The position numbers were made by a program, and so were the translations under genes. DNA of 37,515 nucleotides from Acidimicrobiia bacterium (lineage in GTDB: Bacteria > Actinomycetota > Acidimicrobiia > Spongiisociales > ZC4RG35): positions 1 through 37,515 of the forward strand of contig JALSJV010000331.1 of the NCBI GenBank assembly GCA_026989215.1, written 5' to 3'. Below are positions 7,120 to 37,515 of the stretch, one piece after another. Within the stretch, counting starts at the first letter, position 1; each line of letters starts with the position of its first letter. The notes beneath the pieces were generated by a model, which was not told where the DNA came from, ran no database searches, and was given only the letters and a program-made list of their open reading frames with translations.

Positions 7120-9012
7120 TCACACGCCTCCTCCGACGACGAGCAACCAGGCCACCACCACGACCACCCCGGCGACGAACACGACGCCGTAGTTGCGCAC
7201 GAACCCCGTCTGCAGCGGCCTCAGGGCGGCCCCGACCCGGCGCACGACCCAGCCGACACCGTTCACCGCCCCGTCCACGATCCCGAGATCGAAGGAGAAC
7301 GCCGTCCGTTCGGCGAGGGTCTTGCCGGGGGCGACGATGAGCGCACCGTAGAGGTCGTCCACCCGATAGGCCTCCTCCCACCAGCGCCAGGGTGCCCCCA
7401 GCGACTCCTGGAACCGCTGCCAGACCTCGGCGGGGCGCCGGTAGGCGAGATAGGCCGCCACGATGCCGAGGACGCCGGCCAGCACCGAGACCGCCGCCAG
7501 CAGGAAGAACGTCGACAGCTCCTTCGAAGGCTGGGCGATGGCGACCCCTTCGAAGGCGGGCTCGAGGAAATGCTCCAACGCCGTCCGCCACGGCGTGTTC
7601 ACGAACCCACCACCGAAGGCGAGGAGGGCGAGGACCAGCAGTGGGATCGTCATCGTCCGGGGGGACTCGTGGGGATGGACACCTTCGTCCCATCGGGGAG
7701 CGCCGAGGAAGACCATGACGAACTGGCGGGTCATGTAGAAGGCGGTGAGCAACGCGGTGACGAGCCCGATGATCCACAACACGACGAACCACCCGCCGGC
7801 TTCGAAGGCGACACCGAGGATCTCGTCCTTCGACCAGAAACCGGAGAACGGCGGGATGCCGGCGATCGCCAGGGTGGCGACCGCCATCGTCACCGCCGTG
7901 ATCGGCATGTGACGGGCGAGTCCACCCATCTTCCGCATGTCCTGCTCGTCGGCCATGCCGTGGATCACCGACCCGGCGCCGAGGAAGAGCAACGCCTTGA
8001 AGAAGGCGTGGGTCATCAGGTGGAACACCCCGGCCACGTACGCCGCGGTGCCGACCCCGAGGAACATGTAGCCGAGCTGGCTGATGGTGGAGTAGGCCAG
8101 CACCTTCTTGATGTCGTTCTGGGCCAGGGCGATCGATGCCGCCCACAGGGCGGTGAGGGCACCGATGGTGGCGACCGTCCCGGCGGCGAAGGGAGCGAGC
8201 TGGTAGATCGGCGCCGACCGGGCGACGACGTACACCCCCGCCGTCACCATCGTGGCGGCGTGGATGAGGGCGGAGACCGGGGTGGGGCCCTCCATGGCGT
8301 CGGGGAGCCACACGTAGAGGGGGATCTGGGCCGATTTGCCGATGGCGCCGACCAGCAGCAGCAGGCCGATGGCGGTGGCGACGCCCGTCCCCAGTACTTC
8401 TGGGGCACGCTCGAAGATCCCGGCGTAGGAGAGGGTGCCGAAGGAGGTGAAGATGAGCATGAGGCCGACCATGAAGCCGAAGTCGCCGATCCGGTTGACG
8501 ACGAAGGCCTTCTTGCCGGCGGCGGCGGCGGAGGGGCGGGTGAACCAGAAGGAGATCAGCAGGTACGAGCAGAGGCCCACCAGCTCCCAGCCGAGGAAGA
8601 GCATGGCGTAGTTCCCCGCCAGGACGAGGGTGAGCATGGAGGCGGCGAACAGGTTGAGGTAGACGAAGAAGCGGGAGAACCGTTCGTCACCGGACATGTA
8701 GCCGATCGAGTACAGGTGGATGAGCGACCCCACACCGGTGACGATCAGCACCATGAGGGCGGCGAGGGGGTCCCACTGCAGCTCGAAGCCGGCACCGATG
8801 GCAGGCATCCACTCCCACAGCAGGACCCGGACGTTCTCCCCGGTCCCCCGGAAGAAGGGGACGGCGGCTCCGGCGGCGACGACGAAGGAGCCACCGATGA
8901 GCAGCGTGGCGACCCAGCCCGCGGCCGGCTCACCGAGACGACGACCGAAGAAGTGGAGGAACACCGCCCCGAAGAGGGGGAGGGCGATGACGAGCCAGAG
9001 AAGGTCGATCAT
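7120..9012 (-). CDS. nuoL: NADH-quinone oxidoreductase subunit L
   Basis: [19 protein letters not shown] start; [36 protein letters not shown]. Confidence 0.97.
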
Positions 9013-9314
9013 CCCTTCAGCTCCGACAGCTCGTCGACCGAGGCCGTCGCCCGGGCACGGAAGACGGCGACGATGATGGCCAGGCCCACCACCACCTCGG
9101 CGGCGGCGACGACCAGGACGAAGAAGACCGACACCTGACCGTCGAGGGTCCCGAGGGCCCGCCCCGCCGCCACGAACGTGAGGTTGACGGCGTTGAGCAT
9201 CAGCTCGATGCACATGAACATGACGAGCGCGTTCCGCCGCACCAGCATGCCGATCGCCCCGATGGAGAACAGGGCGGCCGCCAAGGTCATGTACCAGCCC
9301 GGGCCGACCGTCAC
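9009..9314 (-). CDS. nuoK: NADH-quinone oxidoreductase subunit K
   Basis: 101 aa; [26 protein letters not shown]. Confidence 0.97.
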
Positions 9315-9844
9315 TCGTGCTCCTCCCGGATCAGGCCCCGCTTGAAGTAGGCGAGGGCGATCGCCCCGGCGGCGGCGATCGTGAGGAGCAACGCGGTGAC
9401 CTCGAAGGCGAGGATCCAGGTGGTGAACAGCGGCTCGGCGACGGCCTGGACCGTGCCGTTGGGGATCTCGACGTCACCGACCGCCGCCGGCACCCAGACG
9501 AAACGCCCGGAGACGACCAACGCCGCCACGACGAGCCCCAGCGCCGTCCCCAGCACGCCGACGAGGATCCGCTGTCGGGGCAGGTGCTCGGAGGTGTCCT
9601 CGGCCTTGTCGACTCCGATGAGCATGATCACGAACAGGAACAGCGTCATCACCGCCCCGGCGTAGACGATCACCTGGACGGCGGCGACCAGGTGGGCGAG
9701 GTTGACGACGTAGATCACCGCCAAGGAGAACAGGGTCCCGAACAGGCCCATGGCGGAGTGAACCGGGTTCCGGGCCGTCACCACCGTCACCGCCCCGGCG
9801 AGGGCGGCGACGGCGGTGATGACGAACAGGATCAGCTCCACCAT
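9311..9844 (-). CDS. nuoJ: NADH-quinone oxidoreductase subunit J
   Basis: [41 protein letters not shown] at 9842-9844 overlapping the nuoI end. Confidence 0.96.
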
Positions 9845-10473
9845 CAGGCGTCCCTCGTCTCCTGGTCCGGTTCGGGATCCCACGAGGCGGGCCCGGGCGT
9901 GCCCTGCCACATCGTCACCCCTTCGTAGGCGGCCGACCCGGCGGGGGCGGTCGCCCGCAGCCAGCCGTCGGCCACCTCCAGCTCGGACATGTCGGCGTAG
10001 GGATCGTCGGGTCGGGGGTGGGGCACGCTGCCGTCGGGACGCATGAGCAGCTCGTTCTTCGTGTAGATGGCGTCCTCCCGGGAGGTGACCGACATCTCGA
10101 AGAGATGGGTCATCGTGATCGCCTCGGTGGGACAGGCCTCCACACAGAGTCCGCAGAAGATGCACCGCAACATGTTGATCTCGTAGACGAACCCGAACCG
10201 CTCCCCGGGACTGGTCGGATCGTCGGGGGGGTTGTCGGCCCCCCGGACGAAGATGCACTGGGCCGGGCAGGCTCCCGCACACAGCTCACATCCGATGCAC
10301 TTCTCCATCCCGTCGGGGTACCGGTTGAGGACGTGCCGCCCGTGGAAACGCTGAGGCTTGGTACGAAACTCGTGGGGATACTCGGTGGTGACGATCCCCC
10401 GACCGAACAGGGAGCGCAGCCCGATCCGCCCGGTGACCCGTAACCCCTTCCACAGCTCCGACATCACTCCCAT
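9844..10473 (-). CDS. nuoI: NADH-quinone oxidoreductase subunit I (2x[4Fe-4S])
   Basis: [16 protein letters not shown] and [16 protein letters not shown]. Confidence 0.97.
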
Positions 10474-27801: not shown

Positions 27802-28470
27802 ATGACACGACGGATCCCCCGGGCGACGGTGGCGCGCCTTCCGGCCTACCTCCGTCATCTCGACTCCCTCGGGCCCGGGCAACAGACGGTGCAGTCCTCG
27901 GATCTGGCGAGCGCGTCGGGCGTGAACGCGGCGAAGGTCCGAAAGGACCTCTCCTACATCGGCGCCACCGGGGTGAGGGGGGTCGGATACGACGTCGAAG
28001 AGCTGCGGAACCTCATCCTGCGGCGCCTCGGCCTCAGCACCGACCTGACGGTGGTGCTCATCGGCGCCGGAAACCTGGGGAGCGCCCTGGCCCGCTACAA
28101 GGGTTTCGACAATCGGGGCTTCCACATCGTCTCGGTGTACGACATCGACCCGAAACGGGTCGGGAAACGGATCGCCGGCATCGAGATCCGCCATCTCGAC
28201 CGCCTGGAGGAGGACCTGGAGCGCAATCCCGCCGACATCGGCATCATCGCCACCCCGGCGTCGGAAGCCCAAGGTGTCGCCGATCGGCTGATCGCCGCGG
28301 GGATCCCCGGCATCCTCAACTTCGCCCCGACCGTGATCAGGGTGCCGCCCGGCGCCACGGTCCGCCAGGTGGATCTGGCGACCGAGCTGCAGATCCTCGC
28401 CTTCTACCTGGGCTCCCGCCGAGAGACGGGTTCGACGTCGAGCCTCCCCGAGCGATGGCGCTCCGGGTAG
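27802..28470 (+). CDS. rex: Redox-sensing transcriptional repressor Rex
   Basis: [83 protein letters not shown]. Confidence 0.96.
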
Positions 28471-29741: not shown

Positions 29742-30101
29742 CTAGAGGTCGGCTCGCTCCTGGGTCTCCTCGTACTGTTTGAGGGCGACGAGGAACGCGA
29801 CGAAGACGATCGCCGACACCAGCATGAAGGTGATGGGGATGATCCGGATCTCGAAGGCGTTGAGGCCCTCGATGTCGGCAGGCCGGGGTCCCCGGGGTGC
29901 GTAGAGGACGAACAGGAGACTCCCGATCGTCCACCAGGCGGACACCCCCGCCCCGGTCACCAGAAACCCCAGCTTCTTCCCCAGGTTGGTGTAGGTGAGC
30001 AGGTAGATCGTCCCGTAGAAGACGAGGATCGACGCGACCGTGAGGATGATGCCGGTGACGAACAGGTTGGCGGAGAGCAGCTCGCGCATCAGCTCGCGCA
30101 T
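29742..30101 (-). CDS. Small membrane protein (119 aa) downstream of cytochrome bc genes
   Basis: Three hydrophobic segments; tightly packed next to the diheme cytochrome c gene. Confidence 0.65.
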   Translation of the reverse strand: MRELMRELLSANLFVTGIILTVASILVFYGTIYLLTYTNLGKKLGFLVTGAGVSAWWTIGSLLFVLYAPRGPRPADIEGLNAFEIRIIPITFMLVSAIVFVAFLVALKQYEETQERADL

Positions 30102-30104
30102 GGT

Positions 30105-31823
30105 TCACTCACCCCTCTCGGCGTGGTTGACGATTCCGTCCAGGTGTCCACCCCACAGATACTGTGCGAGGAGCTCGAGGTCCTCCATGCTCAAGGTCTT
30201 GCCGAAGCCGGGCATCCGGCCGGTGCCTACCCCGTTGAAACCATAGGGTTTGTTGGCGCGGGGGCCGGTCACCAGGAAGTCACCGAGGTCTTCCACCGAT
30301 GCGAACTGCTTCCGCACCCGGCCCTCCCAGAGGGCGGGACCGAAGCCGCCGGCCCCCGGCTCCTGGGCGAAGGGGATCCCCGCCGAATACCCCGACGTGT
30401 GGCAGCGGGCGCAGTATCCCTGGAAGATCCCGACCGCCCGCTCGGCCTTGGCGAGGTCCCCGTCGAAGACCTGGTCGGCGACCCCCTGGATGTCGATCTC
30501 CCAGCGGCGCTCCTTCTGGGCGGTGAGCAGCCGCTGGAGACCTTCCTCGGCGGGTCCGAGCAGCTTCTCCAGGTTCTCGGCCTGGATGGTGAGGTTGAGC
30601 GACAGCGTGGACAGCCCGCCCACCACCCGGTGGGCGACGTCCTCGTCGGGCTCACCGGAGGTGGCGGGGTTCCTCGGGTCGAGATCGATGACCTGGATCT
30701 CACTCGGCCGCATCGCCTGCACCGCGGCGGTGAGCTGTGAGGTGATCTGCTGCTCGGCCTCGTCGGGGATGGTGTCGAGGTCGGAGTCCTCTCCCTCGGT
30801 CTGGGCGAGCGCCTCGCGGATCGCCTCCACGTTGGGGGCGATGAGCGGCGCCCGGGTGGCGACCAGCTCCTCGAGGGTGGCGAGGAGCTCCTCGGCGACC
30901 TCCCGATCGGGCCGGTCGGTGCTCGCCGGGGCCTCGGGATCGAAGGTGATGGGCTCGAGCCCGGGAATGGCGAAGGCGCGTTCCGCCTCGCGGGTGATGT
31001 CGCTGATCTCCCGCTCCGCCACGTCGGAGAGGCCGTCACCGTCGGTGTCGAGCCCCTCGCCGGCGGTGGCGAGGACCTTCTCGGCGCGTTTCGCCAGGTC
31101 GGCGGCGATCGGAGCCAGCGTCGGGGCGGCCTCGAGGTCGACGATGAGCTGACGCTGCCTACGGATGATCTCTTCCAGGGCGGCGTCGGCCCCTTCGAGC
31201 TTCGCCAGCTCGGCGCGGACGACGTCGTTCGCCCGGGCCACGGCCTCACTCTGGGGGATCTGGATCGTCTCCAGGTAGTTGACGATGTCCTCGACCTGCT
31301 GTTCGGTCATCGGACCGCCCCCGGCCACCCCCCACGGGGGCATCGGGGTGTTCCCCCGCCCGTAGGTGATCCAGAAGTTGATCTCCTCGCGGGTGTACCG
31401 GTAGAAGATGTCGTCGAGGGACGGGGCCACCCAGCTCACGTTCACCCCGGTGCGCTTCTCCACGAACGGCGCCGCCCCCCCGACCCCGTTGGGGCCGTGG
31501 CAGTTGAAACACCCGAACTCCTGGACCAGCTCGGCTCCACGCTCGACCGACTCCTCGTGGAACTGGTCGACGAAGCTCTCCTGACGATCCGTCTCCCCGA
31601 GGAAGTAGAGGGGGAGGGCCAGGGCCAGGAAGGCGGAGAGGACGACGGCCGCCTGCTGGGCCCGTTCGAGACGACGGGTCTCCAGCTCGTCGTCGGGGAT
31701 CGGCGGCTTGAGGTTGGGCGGGATCTCCTCTTTGCCCCGGGTGCGCAGGGCGCTGACCCCGAGGAAGGCCAGGTAGCCGACGGCCAGGACGACGGCGACG
31801 AGGATGACGGCGTTGGAGCTCAC
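30105..31823 (-). CDS. Membrane-anchored diheme cytochrome c (QcrC-like), with long inter-heme insert
   Basis: N-terminal TM segments, CFNCH (31497-31511) and CARCH (30399-30413); adjacent to Rieske and cytochrome b. Confidence 0.9.
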   Translation of the reverse strand: MSSNAVILVAVVLAVGYLAFLGVSALRTRGKEEIPPNLKPPIPDDELETRRLERAQQAAVVLSAFLALALPLYFLGETDRQESFVDQFHEESVERGAELVQEFGCFNCHGPNGVGGAAPFVEKRTGVNVSWVAPSLDDIFYRYTREEINFWITYGRGNTPMPPWGVAGGGPMTEQQVEDIVNYLETIQIPQSEAVARANDVVRAELAKLEGADAALEEIIRRQRQLIVDLEAAPTLAPIAADLAKRAEKVLATAGEGLDTDGDGLSDVAEREISDITREAERAFAIPGLEPITFDPEAPASTDRPDREVAEELLATLEELVATRAPLIAPNVEAIREALAQTEGEDSDLDTIPDEAEQQITSQLTAAVQAMRPSEIQVIDLDPRNPATSGEPDEDVAHRVVGGLSTLSLNLTIQAENLEKLLGPAEEGLQRLLTAQKERRWEIDIQGVADQVFDGDLAKAERAVGIFQGYCARCHTSGYSAGIPFAQEPGAGGFGPALWEGRVRKQFASVEDLGDFLVTGPRANKPYGFNGVGTGRMPGFGKTLSMEDLELLAQYLWGGHLDGIVNHAERGE

Positions 31824-31825
31824 GC

Positions 31826-32686
31826 TCAGGCTCCCCCGCCGGCGGCGATGCAGGACGGACCCTGCGGGTACTTCACGGTGAGGATCGGAGCCCGCGGCGT
31901 CTGGACGATCGACCCGGTCTTGATGATCAGGTCGTCGGCCGGGGTGAAATCGATCACGAACCGGTCGAGGTTGCGGGGCGCGGGCCCGGCGAAGTACTCA
32001 CCCACCAGGCTGTACTTCGAGCCGTGGCACGGGCACTCGAACCCTTGAGACGGCTGGCACCAGGGCACCCGACATCCCAGATGGACGCAGCGTTGCCAGA
32101 GCGCCATCACGCCTCGGTCGGCGACCCCGAGGTCGCGGAACTGTGGGGACAGCGCGTTCTCGTCGTAGGGGACGAGGTAGGCCCGGGCCTCGGGGATGAA
32201 CAGCGGGGTCACCGAGCCGTCCTCGTTGAAGAGCTGCTCCCGCAGCTCGTCGACCTTCCCGGCGTTGACGTCGGACCCGAATCCCCCCGTCAGCTTCGGC
32301 CACAGGAACGAGAGCGAGGCGAGACCGAACCCGGCCAGGAAGGTCCCGAAGGTGGCGCCGAGCGCCCGGTTGAAGAATTGGCGGCGCGTGACGCCCGCCT
32401 CCTCGGGGGTGACCTCGACCACCACCGGCTCGGAGACGACCTCCACCGCGGTGGCGACCGGCGGCTCCGAGGTCGCCTCGCCGCCCTCCTCGGCGGCCTG
32501 CTCCCCGGCGGACTCGGTCGCGGCGACGAAGGCTTCGGGGACCTCGGACCGATCGGCGGCCAGGGTCTCCGAACTCACACCCTTTCGCCAGTCCGTCGAA
32601 CGGCGGTAGGCGATGGCGAAGGCGGCCGCGGCGGCGGCGATGGCCACCAAGGCGACACCGACCAGGATCAGGTTTGCGGCACTCAT
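31826..32686 (-). CDS. Rieske [2Fe-2S] protein of cytochrome bc complex
   Basis: CVHLGCRVPWCQPSQGFECPCHGSKYS; twin-Arg TRRQFFNRALGATFGTFLAGFGLASL. Confidence 0.95.
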   Translation of the reverse strand: MSAANLILVGVALVAIAAAAAAFAIAYRRSTDWRKGVSSETLAADRSEVPEAFVAATESAGEQAAEEGGEATSEPPVATAVEVVSEPVVVEVTPEEAGVTRRQFFNRALGATFGTFLAGFGLASLSFLWPKLTGGFGSDVNAGKVDELREQLFNEDGSVTPLFIPEARAYLVPYDENALSPQFRDLGVADRGVMALWQRCVHLGCRVPWCQPSQGFECPCHGSKYSLVGEYFAGPAPRNLDRFVIDFTPADDLIIKTGSIVQTPRAPILTVKYPQGPSCIAAGGGA

Positions 32687-33741
32687 TCGAAACTCACCCA
32701 GTCTTTCAGATCGTCGAAGAAGATCCCGTCCTTCCACGGGTAGCTGAAGTTGAACCCCTTCCCCCGGAACAGCACCCCGAGGATGGTCAGGGTCGCCGAC
32801 CCGGCGAGGAAGATCGTGTAGAGCATGATGGCGAGCTTCCGGTCGGAGGGCTTCGTCGACGGGTTGCGGTCCACGTAGGGGATCATCATGAACCCGACCA
32901 GCCCGATGATCGTCGGCACGGTCACGCCCGCGATCTGCGGGTCGAAGTACGACAGCAGCTCCTGCAGTCCGAGGAAGTACCACGGAGCCTTCGACGGGTT
33001 CGGCGTCAGGTTGGGGTTGGCGGCTTCGAGCAGCGGCGCCTGCAGGGCGACCGACATCAGGATCAACAGTCCGGTCATCGCCAGGAGGGCGACGAACTCG
33101 ACCAGCATGAGGTGGGGCCAGGTGTTGACCTTGTCGTGGGGCTCCGCCTTGACCTGCTGGATCGCCTTCGCCTTGACGACGGTGAGGAGCCGCTGGGTGC
33201 GGACGCCTTCGGGGACACCGGCGGGCGGGACGCTGGGCCGAGGCGACACGACCGCCGCCACCTTGCCGCCTCCGTTCCCGGTGGGCGCCGGGACGGTGGG
33301 CTCCTCCACCGCCACCGCGGCGGGGGCCTCGGCGGGCTGGGGAGCGCCCGCGGGAGGCTCCGCGGCCGGTGGAGGCGCCTCGGCGCCCACAGGCGGCGCT
33401 TCGCCCGCCATCTCGGCCAGCACGTTCACCAGGGGGACGCCGAGCGCCTTCGCCTTCGCCTCGGCGGAGCGCCGGAGGAGCGCCTCGGGCATCCCGGCGA
33501 CCTGGGCCGCCTTGGCCAGGAGCGCGTCGACGTCGCCGGAGCTCGCCGCGGGATCGGACGACGGTTCCTGCGGGGACGGCTCGGCCGGCGGGGCGGTCTG
33601 CTCGGACGGCTCCGATGCGGCGGGCGGGGTCGGCGGGGCCTCGCCCTTCATCTCGGCGAGCACCTGCTCGACGGGGATGCCGAGGGCTTTCGCCTTCGCC
33701 TCGGCGGAGCGCCGGAGGAGACTTTCGGGGATCTCGGTCAT
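32683..33741 (-). CDS. Cytochrome b C-terminal (subunit IV-like) subunit with N-terminal duplicated ~35-aa module and Pro/Ala linkers
   Basis: NPSKAPWYFLGLQELLSYFDPQIAGVTVPTIIGLVGFMMIPYVDRNPS; N-terminus has two copies of (I/M)PExLLRRSAEAKAKALG(I/V)P. Confidence 0.92.
   Translation of the reverse strand: MTEIPESLLRRSAEAKAKALGIPVEQVLAEMKGEAPPTPPAASEPSEQTAPPAEPSPQEPSSDPAASSGDVDALLAKAAQVAGMPEALLRRSAEAKAKALGVPLVNVLAEMAGEAPPVGAEAPPPAAEPPAGAPQPAEAPAAVAVEEPTVPAPTGNGGGKVAAVVSPRPSVPPAGVPEGVRTQRLLTVVKAKAIQQVKAEPHDKVNTWPHLMLVEFVALLAMTGLLILMSVALQAPLLEAANPNLTPNPSKAPWYFLGLQELLSYFDPQIAGVTVPTIIGLVGFMMIPYVDRNPSTKPSDRKLAIMLYTIFLAGSATLTILGVLFRGKGFNFSYPWKDGIFFDDLKDWVSFE
33449..33480. repeat. Direct repeat copy (32 bp; partner at 33689-33720), 240-bp period
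   Basis: ttcgccttcgcctcggcggagcgccggaggag identical at both sites. Confidence 0.97.
33689..33720. repeat. Direct repeat copy (32 bp; partner at 33449-33480)
   Basis: ttcgccttcgcctcggcggagcgccggaggag identical at both sites. Confidence 0.97.
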
Positions 33742-33754
33742 TCGCTACCTCCGA

Positions 33755-34543
33755 TCACAGTGGTCCCGAGATGCCGCCGTCCTTGCGGACCCGCCAGAAG
33801 TGGACGGCCATGAAGATGACGATGATGAACGGGAGGAACAGGACGTGGAGGACATACCACCGCAGCAGCGTCCCTGCGGTCACCTCCACCCCCGCCAGCA
33901 GCGCGAACTTCACCTGGTCGCCGAAGACCGGGACGAAGCCCGCCATGTTGGTCCCCACGGTGACGGCCCAGAGGGCGAGCTGGTCCCAGGGGAGCAGATA
34001 GCCGGTGAACGAGAGCAGCAGCGTGAGGAGCAGCAGCACGACCCCGACCACCCAGTTGAACTCGCGGGGCGGCTTGTAGGCGCCGTGATAGAAGACCCGG
34101 GACATGTGGAGGAACACGGTGAGCACCATGAGGTGGGCGCCCCAGCGGTGCATGTTGCGGACGAGGGACCCGAACGCCACGTTGGTGGAGAGGGCCTGGA
34201 TGTCGACGTAGGCCCGCTCGGCGGTGGGCGCGTAATAGAACATCAGGAAGATGCCGGTGATGGTGAGCAGGATGAACAGGAAGAAGCTCAGACCGCCGAG
34301 GCAGAGGGTGTAGGAGAGCTTCACGCCGTGCCGCTTCACCTTCACCGGGTGGAGGTGGTACAGCACATTGTTCATGATCACGTACGACCGGTTCCGCGGA
34401 CTGTCCGCGTACCCCTTCTTGAAGGGCGATCCGGGCCGGAACACCGACTCCATGAACTGGGACCCGCGGAGACGGTCGACCGCCTCGGCCGTCCGTTCGC
34501 GCACCCGCTCCAGCAATCCCGTCTTCCCGTTTCCGTTGGCCAC
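33755..34543 (-). CDS. Cytochrome b N-terminal subunit (cytochrome b6-like), probable GTG start
   Basis: [65 protein letters not shown] upstream of GTG at 34543. Confidence 0.94.
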
Positions 34544-34553
34544 TCGGCTCCTC

Positions 34554-35003
34554 CTACCAACGCATCCCGTAGGCGTATCCGTTCTTGAAATCACGCTGAC
34601 CCGTGTCCACGTCCCAGGGCGCCCGGTCGAGACCGAGGGCGGCTGCCTGCTCCGCCAGCGAACCCTCGAACTTGCCGAGGGTGATCACCCCGGTGGGGCA
34701 GCGGTCGATGCAGAGGGCGCAGCGGGTGCACTCGTTCTCGTCCACCACGAAGAATCCGAGGTTCGTGGGGTCCGTCGTGGGGTCGTCGACGTTGACCGCC
34801 TCGGCGATGGCGTCGATCGACAGGTAGTGGATGCATTTCCACGGGCAGATGTCGACACATCCTTCACAGAGGATGCATTCGGACTGATCGATGTGGAGGA
34901 ACTGCTTGGGACGCAGCTTGTCCTTGAAGTAGTCGCCGTCGACGAGGGCGAGCTGGTAGTCGTCGCGGAACGGCGGCGTCTCGTCGACCACGCCGCGAGG
35001 CAT
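34554..35003 (-). CDS. 2x[4Fe-4S] ferredoxin-type protein in the cytochrome bc cluster (149 aa)
   Basis: [15 protein letters not shown] and [12 protein letters not shown]. Confidence 0.93.
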
Positions 35004-35644
35004 CAGCGCTCCCCCTCCACGAGTGGGCGACCGTAGGGCGACTTCGGTGCGGGCTTCTCCACCTTCGGGCGGGGCTTGCCGATGTCCTGCACCTTGTAGG
35101 CGAACACGGCGGCGGCGCCCAACATCACCAGGTTGTAGGTGCCGGAGATGGCGTCCTTGATCGCCGCCAGGCTGATGTCGACCTGATTGCCGAGGGTGAG
35201 CCACCGCGGAAGCGTGAACGCGACCCGCTGCGGAGACCAGTTGAGATCGGTCTGGGCCAGGTTGAGCCACTCCGACGGCACGACCCCGAAGATGAGCACC
35301 AGCTCCATCCAGGCGATGAAGGCGGCGAACGCTGCCCGTGCCCAGGTCATGGGCCGACCGAGCACGAACCCGATGGCGGCACCGGCGAGCATGAGCTGGC
35401 TCCCTCCGAACGCGATGAGGTAGCCGATCGATTTCGGCAGCCAGCCACGGGGGACCCAGTTGAATTCACCGAGGACCACCGGGACCTCCACCCCGTCCAC
35501 GAGTTCGGTCTCCGGGAAGCCGGCGTAATGGACGAGCCACACCCCGACCGCCAGAACGAGGGTTCCGAGGATCAGCAGGGTCCAGGCGAGGCGCGAACGC
35601 TGCTGAGCCGTCAGCTCACCGAGTCGATTCATCAGCCGATCCAT
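35003..35644 (-). CDS. Multi-pass membrane protein (~214 aa) at head of cytochrome bc cluster
   Basis: About four hydrophobic segments, charged C-terminus; start overlaps ferredoxin co-translation context. Confidence 0.75.
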   Translation of the reverse strand: MDRLMNRLGELTAQQRSRLAWTLLILGTLVLAVGVWLVHYAGFPETELVDGVEVPVVLGEFNWVPRGWLPKSIGYLIAFGGSQLMLAGAAIGFVLGRPMTWARAAFAAFIAWMELVLIFGVVPSEWLNLAQTDLNWSPQRVAFTLPRWLTLGNQVDISLAAIKDAISGTYNLVMLGAAAVFAYKVQDIGKPRPKVEKPAPKSPYGRPLVEGER

Positions 35645-35835
35645 CCTCGTGGTCGCCGCACGCATCGGGGTCGCCGATGCGCGGCATGTTGTACCACACA
35701 CCCGGCCCGGAGGCGGAATCAGCGACGACCGGCCACCCGATCGCGACCCTCCGGTCCGGCGAGCCGAGAGCGGGGACGGAGGGGGTCGCCCGTCCGGCTA
35801 TGCTCCCGCCCGTCCGCGACGACCCGAGGAGCAAC
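35645..35835. promoter_or_regulatory. Divergent intergenic region between the cytochrome bc cluster and the CcoN-like gene
   Basis: ~190 bp between divergent starts; no promoter motif assigned. Confidence 0.4.
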
Positions 35836-37260
35836 GTGGCCTCGAGCCAAACCGCCGAGACGCCGACCCGATCCGATCTCCGTGGCGATCGGGCCGCGAC
35901 CCTCCATCTACTCGGATCATCCCTCTTCCTGGCCCTGGCCGGGATCGTGTTCTTCGCATCGCTGGTCGCGATGCGGTTCCCCGCCCTCTTCAGCGGGCCC
36001 CTCTCCTACGGACGGTTACGCCCGGCGGCGTTCGTCGCCGCCCTGCTGGGATGGCTCGTGCTGGGCCTGGCCGGAGGGATCTACTACGTCCTGCCTCGGC
36101 TCACCGGCTCCCCGCTCGCCGGCGAGGGACTCGCCATCGCCGGGTTCTGGGCGACGGCAGCGGTCACCCTGGTCGGGATGGCGGCGGTCGCCCTGGGGCT
36201 CGGCGACGGCCTCGAACCCTTCTCCCTCCCCTGGTACCTCGACCTCGCCGTGTTGGCGGTGCTGGTCGTCCCTGGGGTGGTGACGATCCAGACCCTGCGT
36301 CGCCGCAACGAGCCGAACACCTACGTCACGATCTGGTACGTCCTCGCCGGGGCGGTGCTCCTCCCCCTGCTCTATCTGGTCGGGAACCTGCCCGGGCTCG
36401 GCGCTCTGGGACGCACCCTCCAGGAGGCGACCTTCCTCGCCGGATTCCTCGTCCTCTGGGTGGTCGGTGTCGGCGCCGGTCTCGCCTTCTTCGTCGTCGC
36501 CAAGGAGACCGACCAGCCCTTGGCGAGCCGTCGCCTGGCGAAGGTGGGCTTCTGGTCGCTGGCCTTCACGGCGTTCTGGTGGGGGCAGCTCCAACTGGTC
36601 CACGGCCCGACCGCCGACTGGGTCGGCGCGGTGGCGCTGGTGATGACCCTGGCCCTCCCCCTCGCAGCCCTCGCCGTCGGTTTCGACCTCGCGACGACGG
36701 TGGGGTCCGCCTGGCCCAGGCTCCGTGAGCTGCCGGCGAGCGCCTCCGCCCTCGCCGCCTCGGCGATGTGGCTGGCACTCTCCGCCGTCATCGTCGCCGC
36801 CGGTCTCCGTTCCTCGGCGGCCCTCGTCGGGCTGACCCTGCTCTGGGACGGCGTCGTGTACGGATTGGTGTTCGGCGTCGGTGGTCTCTTCTTCGCCGCC
36901 GTCGCGCTCCGCGCGGTCCCGGCGGTGAGCGGTCGACAGCTCTTCAGCCGCGACCTCGCCCGAAGGTACCTGCGGTGGACCGTCGGCGGCGTGGGCGGCA
37001 CCGTGACCCTGTTCGTGCTCGCAGGTCTCGCCGCCGGGTACGGCTGGACCGGAGGATCGTTCCTCGGCGTCGTCGCCGACACCGGCACCGGATGGGGCCA
37101 GACCACGGCGCTGGTCGGGCTCCTGTCCGGGCTGGCGGTCCTCACCGCCGCCATCGCCCTCGGAGGTCAGCTCATGCTGGTGATCAACCTCTATCGCACG
37201 GTGACCTCCGGTCGAGCCGGGATCGGCGAAGTCCTCGTCATGAAGGAGACGAACCGATGA
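35836..37260 (+). CDS. CcoN-like (heme-copper oxidase subunit I-like) membrane protein lacking metal-ligand histidines; GTG start
   Basis: GAGGAG upstream of GTG 35836; SYGRLRPAAFVAALLGWLVLGLAGGIYYVLPRLTGSPL, RRRNEPNTYVTIWYVLAGAVLLPLLYLVGN, FFVVAKETDQPLASRRLAKVGFWSLAF; only 2 His in ~474 aa. Confidence 0.75.
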   Translation: MASSQTAETPTRSDLRGDRAATLHLLGSSLFLALAGIVFFASLVAMRFPALFSGPLSYGRLRPAAFVAALLGWLVLGLAGGIYYVLPRLTGSPLAGEGLAIAGFWATAAVTLVGMAAVALGLGDGLEPFSLPWYLDLAVLAVLVVPGVVTIQTLRRRNEPNTYVTIWYVLAGAVLLPLLYLVGNLPGLGALGRTLQEATFLAGFLVLWVVGVGAGLAFFVVAKETDQPLASRRLAKVGFWSLAFTAFWWGQLQLVHGPTADWVGAVALVMTLALPLAALAVGFDLATTVGSAWPRLRELPASASALAASAMWLALSAVIVAAGLRSSAALVGLTLLWDGVVYGLVFGVGGLFFAAVALRAVPAVSGRQLFSRDLARRYLRWTVGGVGGTVTLFVLAGLAAGYGWTGGSFLGVVADTGTGWGQTTALVGLLSGLAVLTAAIALGGQLMLVINLYRTVTSGRAGIGEVLVMKETNR

Positions 37261-37515
37261 GCGACCTGGCCAAGGCCGCCGAAGCACTGGGGATCCCCGA
37301 GGCGCTGGTCCGCCGCTCCGCGGAGGCCCGAGCCGCCGCCACCGGCGTCCCGGTGGACGACATCATCGCCGCCTGGGCCTCCGGCGGCGAGGCCCCCGCC
37401 ACCGAGGCTCCCAAGACCGAACCCACACCCACCACCCCGCCCGAACCGGCCCCCGAAGCCGCCCCCACCCCCGAGGAGACCCCGAGCGAGCCCGCCCCGG
37501 CACCGGCCCCCCCGG
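37257..37515 (+). CDS. N-terminal part of protein carrying the RRSAEA module and Pro/Ala/Glu-rich linker; truncated by window end
   Basis: ATGA overlap with the upstream gene; MSDLAKAAEALGIPEALVRRSAEARAAATGVPVDDIIAAWASGGEAPA... Confidence 0.8.
   Translation, partial: MSDLAKAAEALGIPEALVRRSAEARAAATGVPVDDIIAAWASGGEAPATEAPKTEPTPTTPPEPAPEAAPTPEETPSEPAPAPAPP

Follow-up and report, generated by a model that had tools for sequence, protein, structure and literature searches.

The hemes and CuB are the usual defining features of subunit I of heme-copper oxidases (HCOs); in a functional oxidase, these cofactors are held by six His ligands: two for the low-spin heme, one for the high-spin heme, and three for CuB. 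In CcoN, subunit I of the cbb3 (C-family) oxidases with structures in PDB entries 3MK7, 6XKW, and 9G6B, these residues are (P. stutzeri numbering) H60 and H349 for low-spin heme b, H347 for heme b3, and H207, H257, and H258 for CuB; a cross-linked Tyr occupies position 251. CcoN has a 12-helix fold, a GRLRP segment, and a CcoO-type monoheme cytochrome as a partner, and a bifunctional CcoN/CcoO fusion is represented by the NCBIfam model PRK14485. The actinobacterial bcc-aa3 supercomplex (Mycobacterium, Corynebacterium; PMC8361435, PDB 7QHM) uses tethered c-type hemes, which link the bc complex to the heme-copper oxidase without free cytochrome c. A genome paper on UBA5794, an order sister to Ca. 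Actinomarinales, mentions complexes III and IV (PMC12008989), and its cytochrome and oxidase passages make no mention of a ligand-free CcoN-like protein. In the literature that we searched, which omits most subscription papers, nothing specific was found on a ligand-free CcoN, on HCO pseudoenzymes, or on the bc operon described below.

Here, we analyze a locus in a stretch of 37,515 nucleotides (the window) from an Acidimicrobiia bacterium. The window is one whole contig, whose end truncates the last gene of the locus. The central protein, referred to here as CcoN(−), shares with CcoN the 12-helix fold, the GRLRP segment, and a CcoO-type monoheme partner, but the six His ligands and the cross-linked Tyr are missing. 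Features of the locus, together with one related site elsewhere, are as follows.

29742..30101, − strand: p119, a small membrane protein encoded at the end of the conserved bc operon
30105..31823, − strand: cytochrome c with two CxxCH motifs split by an acidic TSP3-like insert
31826..32686, − strand: Rieske iron-sulfur protein (Rieske, E 7e-7)
32683..33741, − strand: cytochrome b C-terminal half, subunit IV-like, with two N-terminal docking-like motifs
33637..33741, − strand: docking-like motif of subunit IV, first copy
33397..33528, − strand: docking-like motif of subunit IV, second copy
33755..34594, − strand: cytochrome b N-terminal half, b6-like (Cytochrome_B, E 2e-47)
34554..35003, − strand: ferredoxin with two 4Fe-4S motifs (Fer4, E 8.5e-12)
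35003..35701, − strand: mem232, a 232-aa membrane protein heading the divergent bc operon (no Pfam family)
35836..37260, + strand: CcoN(−), a 474-aa protein with a predicted 12-helix CcoN fold and without heme or CuB ligands
37257..37515, + strand: CcoO-like gene, 5' part, cut by the contig end, with an N-terminal docking-like motif and a Pro/Ala-rich linker
37257..37394, + strand: docking-like motif of the CcoO-like protein
G000:C185:5203-5343 (locus L119): docking-like motif of a membrane protein near an aa3 COX1

Compared with the bcc-aa3 supercomplex, the components here are a CcoN fold that appears to be heme-less, a CcoO-like cytochrome, a ferredoxin subunit, and a docking-like motif; a physical complex has not been shown.

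Results

CcoN(−) is a homolog of CcoN

The reading frame of CcoN(−) is intact, running from a GTG at 35836, which is preceded within a few bases by a GAGGAG motif, to a TGA at 37260. The first-pass annotation had described an intact CcoN/HCO-like frame of ~474 aa with two His, and this held: the product has 474 amino acids and exactly two His, H24 (LHLLGSS) and another in QLVHGPT. The closest named relative is an Acidimicrobiia MAG (84% identity). Pfam COX1 matches the protein with an E value of 1.5e-19 (70.6 bits, over the curated cut-off of 34.8), and the solved CcoN chains match it in sequence with E values of 2e-16 to 1e-9. The NCBIfam ccoN equivalog model (TIGR00780) scored 101.7 bits, and its cut-off of 583 was not met.

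An AlphaFold2 model of CcoN(−), for which the input consisted of 37 family members and no classical CcoN, had a mean pLDDT of 91.4 and a pTM of 0.92. When the model was compared with the PDB, the top seven matches were CcoN chains (TM 0.85-0.88, E 2e-19 to 6e-18; TM-score 0.88 against 3MK7), and NOR and aa3/ba3 subunits ranked next. Thus, CcoN(−) is homologous to the cbb3 oxidase subunit CcoN and, as computed from the predicted model, has the CcoN fold; by descent and fold (12 helices, Pfam COX1) it belongs to HCO subunit I. A lack of profile or structural similarity to HCOs would have refuted the annotation, and the check returned clear CcoN similarity in both. Identity with NorB was rejected, since the His ligand columns for heme b, heme b3, and FeB are empty and the NOR fold match is weaker than that to CcoN (E 8e-9 vs. 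2e-19).

The cofactor ligands are missing throughout the family

Ligand columns were read from a MAFFT alignment that included the CcoN chains of known structure (3MK7, 6XKW, and 9G6B). At the positions of H60, H207, H257, H258, H347, H349, and Y251, the window protein has A, A, L, Q, V, Y, and A, respectively, so that none of the six His ligands of a functional oxidase (0/6) is present and the cross-linked Tyr is Ala. Among 56 homologs, the window protein included, the six ligand columns contain a single stray His (in L066, at the H257 position), and no His-less member has a Tyr at the Y251 position, while all seven residues are kept in the 11 CcoN rows (eight CcoN-type relatives and three PDB CcoN chains). 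With a single stray His in 56 homologs, and with all of the ligands kept by every ligand-bearing relative examined, the loss in the window protein is far beyond chance. The annotation had claimed that the six His were missing; this was confirmed, and the observation proved to be larger than claimed. The active-site Tyr is replaced as well. Ancestry places CcoN(−) in the HCO superfamily, but judged by its ligands it is no oxidase.

The alignment of 56 homologs contains neither a replacement His column nor a conserved His pair in the heme layer (helix limits were taken from the AlphaFold2 model and the CcoN topology). The most His-rich column (36/56) is at the cytoplasmic start of helix 1, and many family members hold just 1-5 His in the whole protein. 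Among columns conserved in ≥80% of members, no Met, Cys, Lys, or His pair was found in the heme layer. The substitutes at ligand columns differ among members (A/S/G/F/N, Y/F/V/I) and are mostly small (A, S, G). The possibility that homologs carry the His at shifted positions, which would also have counted against the annotation, was checked, and none is shifted in any homolog. We infer that CcoN(−) binds no heme or copper, with the reservation that unusual ligands cannot be excluded from sequence alone. With the same reservation, the annotation's view of a non-catalytic HCO-fold protein beside a bc complex is supported, and is likely to be valid, for canonical HCO chemistry.

An apparent single loss, and constraint away from the cofactor layer

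In a maximum-likelihood tree, one branch with 100/100 support parts 52 His-less rows, from Acidimicrobiia and three other actinobacterial family groups, from the 11 ligand-bearing rows. An artefact of the ligand columns was rejected as the source of the split, which was unchanged in a tree that omitted these columns, the columns next to them, and the two long branches L065 and L126. A single loss of the ligands follows if the root is placed, as seems necessary, among the ligand-bearing HCOs; that the origin appears single is shown by the computation.

In three close pairs of CcoN(−) sequences, pN/pS was 0.18-0.22. The conserved columns cluster in loops and at helix ends. Periplasmic loops have the highest mean column information (1.99 bits), cytoplasmic loops come next (1.76), and the middle third of the helices has the lowest (1.42), so that constraint is weakest in the layer that once held the cofactors. 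Computation thus shows CcoN(−) to be a conserved family under purifying selection, and not a product of decay.

The distribution survey covered Actinomycetota; phyla beyond were not assessed. CcoN(−) is matched in 109 of the 296 genomes of class Acidimicrobiia (E up to 1e-5), and, outside the class, the actinobacterial family groups f61, f65, and f91 have His-less copies. In group f12, with ~1-Mb genomes, which we take, from their size and class, to be probably Candidatus Actinomarina, all 10 genomes tested carry an aa3-type COX1 and a weak COX1-like match at the place of CcoN(−); nine of them have one copy of each and the tenth (G017) has two of each. The genome of the window has three further COX1 genes. 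Four genomes of 95-100% completeness (G038, G062, G054, and G249) have no COX1 match and likewise no CcoN(−) match. Some genomes, such as G228, G230, and G105, have COX1 without a CcoN(−) match, and these absences may be real or may be assembly gaps.

The nearest ligand-bearing relatives found are CcoN-like proteins of groups f71, f72, and f80, within the phylum, and of a Paraburkholderia plasmid. They have CcoO downstream and score 267-307 bits with the ccoN model, also under the cut-off of 583. Unlike CcoN(−), they keep all six His and the Tyr, and no bc operon of the window's type follows in the loci examined. A search of plasmid records for CcoN(−) returned partial matches only, to Sinorhizobium cbb3-type subunit I.

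In Acidimicrobiia, CcoN(−) is divergent from a ferredoxin-containing bc operon

In 40 of 40 Acidimicrobiia loci, CcoN(−) is divergent from a bc operon in the order mem232, ferredoxin, cytochrome b, subunit IV, Rieske protein, diheme cytochrome c, and p119, read as far as contig ends allow. CcoN(−) and the operon are mostly separated by a few hundred bases, but by as much as 3-4 kb in L036, L051, and L057. Downstream of CcoN(−), on the same strand, a CcoO-like cytochrome is followed by a second monoheme cytochrome. This conserved neighbourhood is shown by computation; the survey of homologs proposed with the annotation found a family-wide loss of His, consistent with one origin, and conservation of both the bc complex and the downstream cytochromes. 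Two groups of the class, f18 (L159) and f29 (L158), have the same bc operon and a divergent cytochrome c without CcoN(−), which is therefore dispensable for some bc complexes of this type.

Beyond Acidimicrobiia, the His-less gene frequently does not adjoin a bc operon. By inspection, the His-less CcoN/CcoO pair in L104 and L108, from other actinobacterial groups, lies near ResB- and CcmF-like cytochrome c maturation genes, and geranylgeranyl-reductase-like or NADH dehydrogenase genes are also found in these surroundings.

Several features of the bc operon were noted in passing. The ferredoxin with its two 4Fe-4S motifs is conserved across all loci, and its role in a quinol-oxidising complex is unclear. 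The insert of the diheme cytochrome c (30105-31823, −) is long and acidic, with DxDxDG-type TSP3-like repeats, and perhaps binds calcium. An ORF at 27802-28470 (+), convergent to both the bc operon and an ORF similar to serine hydroxymethyltransferase, resembles, by inspection only, the redox-sensing repressor Rex.

CcoN(−) is paired with, or fused to, a redox domain

The CcoO-like gene of the window is truncated at the contig end, and the identity of the partner rests on its relatives, which, where complete, are CcoO-like monoheme cytochromes c (FixO E 1.1e-11 in L032). A CcoO-type CxxCH adjoins or is fused to CcoN(−) in 39 of 40 loci. In the sole exception, L057 of group f15 (reverse strand, 8771-10204 onwards), CcoN(−) is fused instead to a C-terminal cupredoxin-like domain (HNFSVY...YYFFCDVHPTMKG), and a CcoO-like motif is found ~6 kb further on. 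Since the exception has a cupredoxin-like domain, a periplasmic redox domain partners CcoN(−) in every locus.

CcoN(−) and CcoO are fused in 15 loci, and form one chain of ~640 aa in f2, f3, f8, and L051. The order of the two parts is common to these chains and PRK14485 (171.9 bits), but the score is far under the 1080-bit cut-off, and the CcoN half is without ligands, while the CcoO half retains CxxCH and Met. Both the CxxCH and the Met of MPSY are invariant in the fused chains. A model of the fused chain of L050 had a mean pLDDT of 80 and a pTM of 0.88. Where CcoO is a separate gene (compared in L032-L048, L054, L065, and L068-L071), the axial Met position of MPSY reads His in f4, f7, f12, L054, and all 10 examined loci of f1, the family of the window; two f6 loci have Met, and L041 has Gln. 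Retention of the heme motif by the partner is thus shown by computation; that the Met-to-His branch of CcoO has a lower-potential heme c is suggested by inference.

A docking-like motif is common to bc and aa3-linked proteins

A motif of ~45 aa (consensus LLAxAAxALGxPExLVxRSAEARAxAxGxxVExxLAAWAGG) opens subunit IV, the CcoO-like protein, and the second cytochrome in one or several copies, and is followed by a Pro/Ala-rich linker and then a membrane helix. Its cytoplasmic location is inferred from the topology that these cytochromes are expected to have. Four such sites occur in the window's genome: subunit IV carries two, the CcoO-like protein carries one, and the fourth is in a membrane protein encoded 2.3 kb from an aa3-type COX1. 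Wherever a motif-bearing protein and aa3 COX1 share a contig, which is the case in 11 genomes (G000, G013, G030, G034, G042, G046, G066, G082, G160, G236, and G270), they are 2-8 kb apart. Computation therefore shows the motif to be common to bc and aa3-linked proteins. No match was found in genomes of f61, f65, f91, f72, and f80, and the motif thus belongs to the Acidimicrobiia version of the system. Attempts to assign it to a known domain gave no convincing Pfam match; PDB matches were to short repeated stretches, and none passes alone except one at E >1.

Discussion

The results are best explained if CcoN(−) is an HCO pseudoenzyme that serves as a membrane scaffold anchoring cytochromes in a bc-aa3 assembly. 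We put the probability of this reading at ca. 0.55, the scaffold role being inferred. In this view, a descendant of CcoN that lost all ligands of heme b, heme b3, and CuB would survive as a membrane scaffold; it would anchor the CcoO-type monoheme cytochrome c, probably together with the second one, beside the ferredoxin-containing bc complex, and electrons from that complex would pass via the tethered c hemes toward an aa3 oxidase, bypassing CcoN. A scaffold is more probable than an enzyme because all ligands were lost and yet bacteria, even those with tiny genomes, keep CcoN(−) among the parts of their respiratory chain. The single complex, its assembly through the motif, and the path of electrons are all inferred: association rests on gene order and on a motif of unknown function, and there are no biochemical data. 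Counting against the reading are the f18 and f29 bc operons that lack CcoN(−) and the frequent separation of the His-less gene from a bc operon outside Acidimicrobiia; in its favor, CcoN(−) accompanies an aa3-type oxidase in the ~1-Mb genomes and is missing, like COX1, from four near-complete genomes. Of the roles that the first-pass annotation had offered, scaffolding or electron transfer remains an inference, and quinone binding has no support so far.

Among the alternatives, CcoN(−) could act in the assembly, maturation, or regulation of the CcoO-like cytochrome or the bc complex without being a lasting structural part of an electron-transfer assembly. Its constant position beside the bc operon and cytochromes in sampled Acidimicrobiia would agree with this, as would the maturation genes ResB and CcmF near the pair in L104 and L108. 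We consider it unlikely, however: single-chain fusion with CcoO in 15 loci indicates a stable 1:1 partnership, and HCO-fold proteins are not known to act as assembly factors. Reuse of the fold, with quinone or lipid bound in the emptied heme cavities, or with conduction of protons or ions, coupled to electron transfer by the adjacent cytochromes, is favored by linkage to a quinol-oxidising bc complex, and a cavity could remain because the residues at ligand positions are mostly small. Yet the mid-membrane layer is the least conserved, and no conserved polar pathway or binding motif was seen in the core, making this reading improbable as well.

Doubts are stronger still about a redox subunit whose heme would be held by ligands other than His or by residues that a partner supplies. 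Retention of the fold and a partner, CcoO, that is itself a heme protein speak for this, but the heme layer has no conserved Met, Cys, Lys, or His pair, and the replacements are variable. A functional oxidase or NO reductase whose ligands are shifted and misaligned, which the similarity in fold and profile to CcoN might suggest, is virtually excluded by the family alignment: no His is conserved in the membrane core, the shared His column is at the cytoplasmic start of helix 1, and in the 11 CcoN rows all of the ligands fall in the same aligned columns. Loss of every catalytic residue could likewise be expected of a decaying pseudogene, but frames are intact across the class, the gene is kept in ~1-Mb genomes with conserved synteny, and the pN/pS near 0.2 together with the breadth of occurrence leaves practically no room for that reading.

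The scaffold reading can be extended to a bolder one, for which the balance of evidence falls slightly short and which is likewise inferred. The cofactor-free CcoN(−) class would then be the structural heart of a new respiratory assembly, holding the CcoO-type and second cytochromes between the ferredoxin-containing bc complex and an aa3 oxidase, with undescribed docking domains of ~45 aa, carried on Pro/Ala-rich linkers, stitching the cytoplasmic side together. As a ligand-free CcoN family, CcoN(−) has no description in the literature searched, from which most subscription papers are missing, and the chance that a new class of respiratory assembly is represented here is substantial.

A conserved ligand-free branch of HCO subunit I would amount to a class of respiratory pseudoenzymes, and would make automatically derived numbers of cbb3 oxidases in actinobacterial genomes misleading. 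In the scaffold reading, CcoN(−) may point to an unrecognised supercomplex architecture of the respiratory chain in a group that includes bacteria with ~1-Mb genomes, and it makes directly testable what the oxidase fold does without oxygen chemistry.
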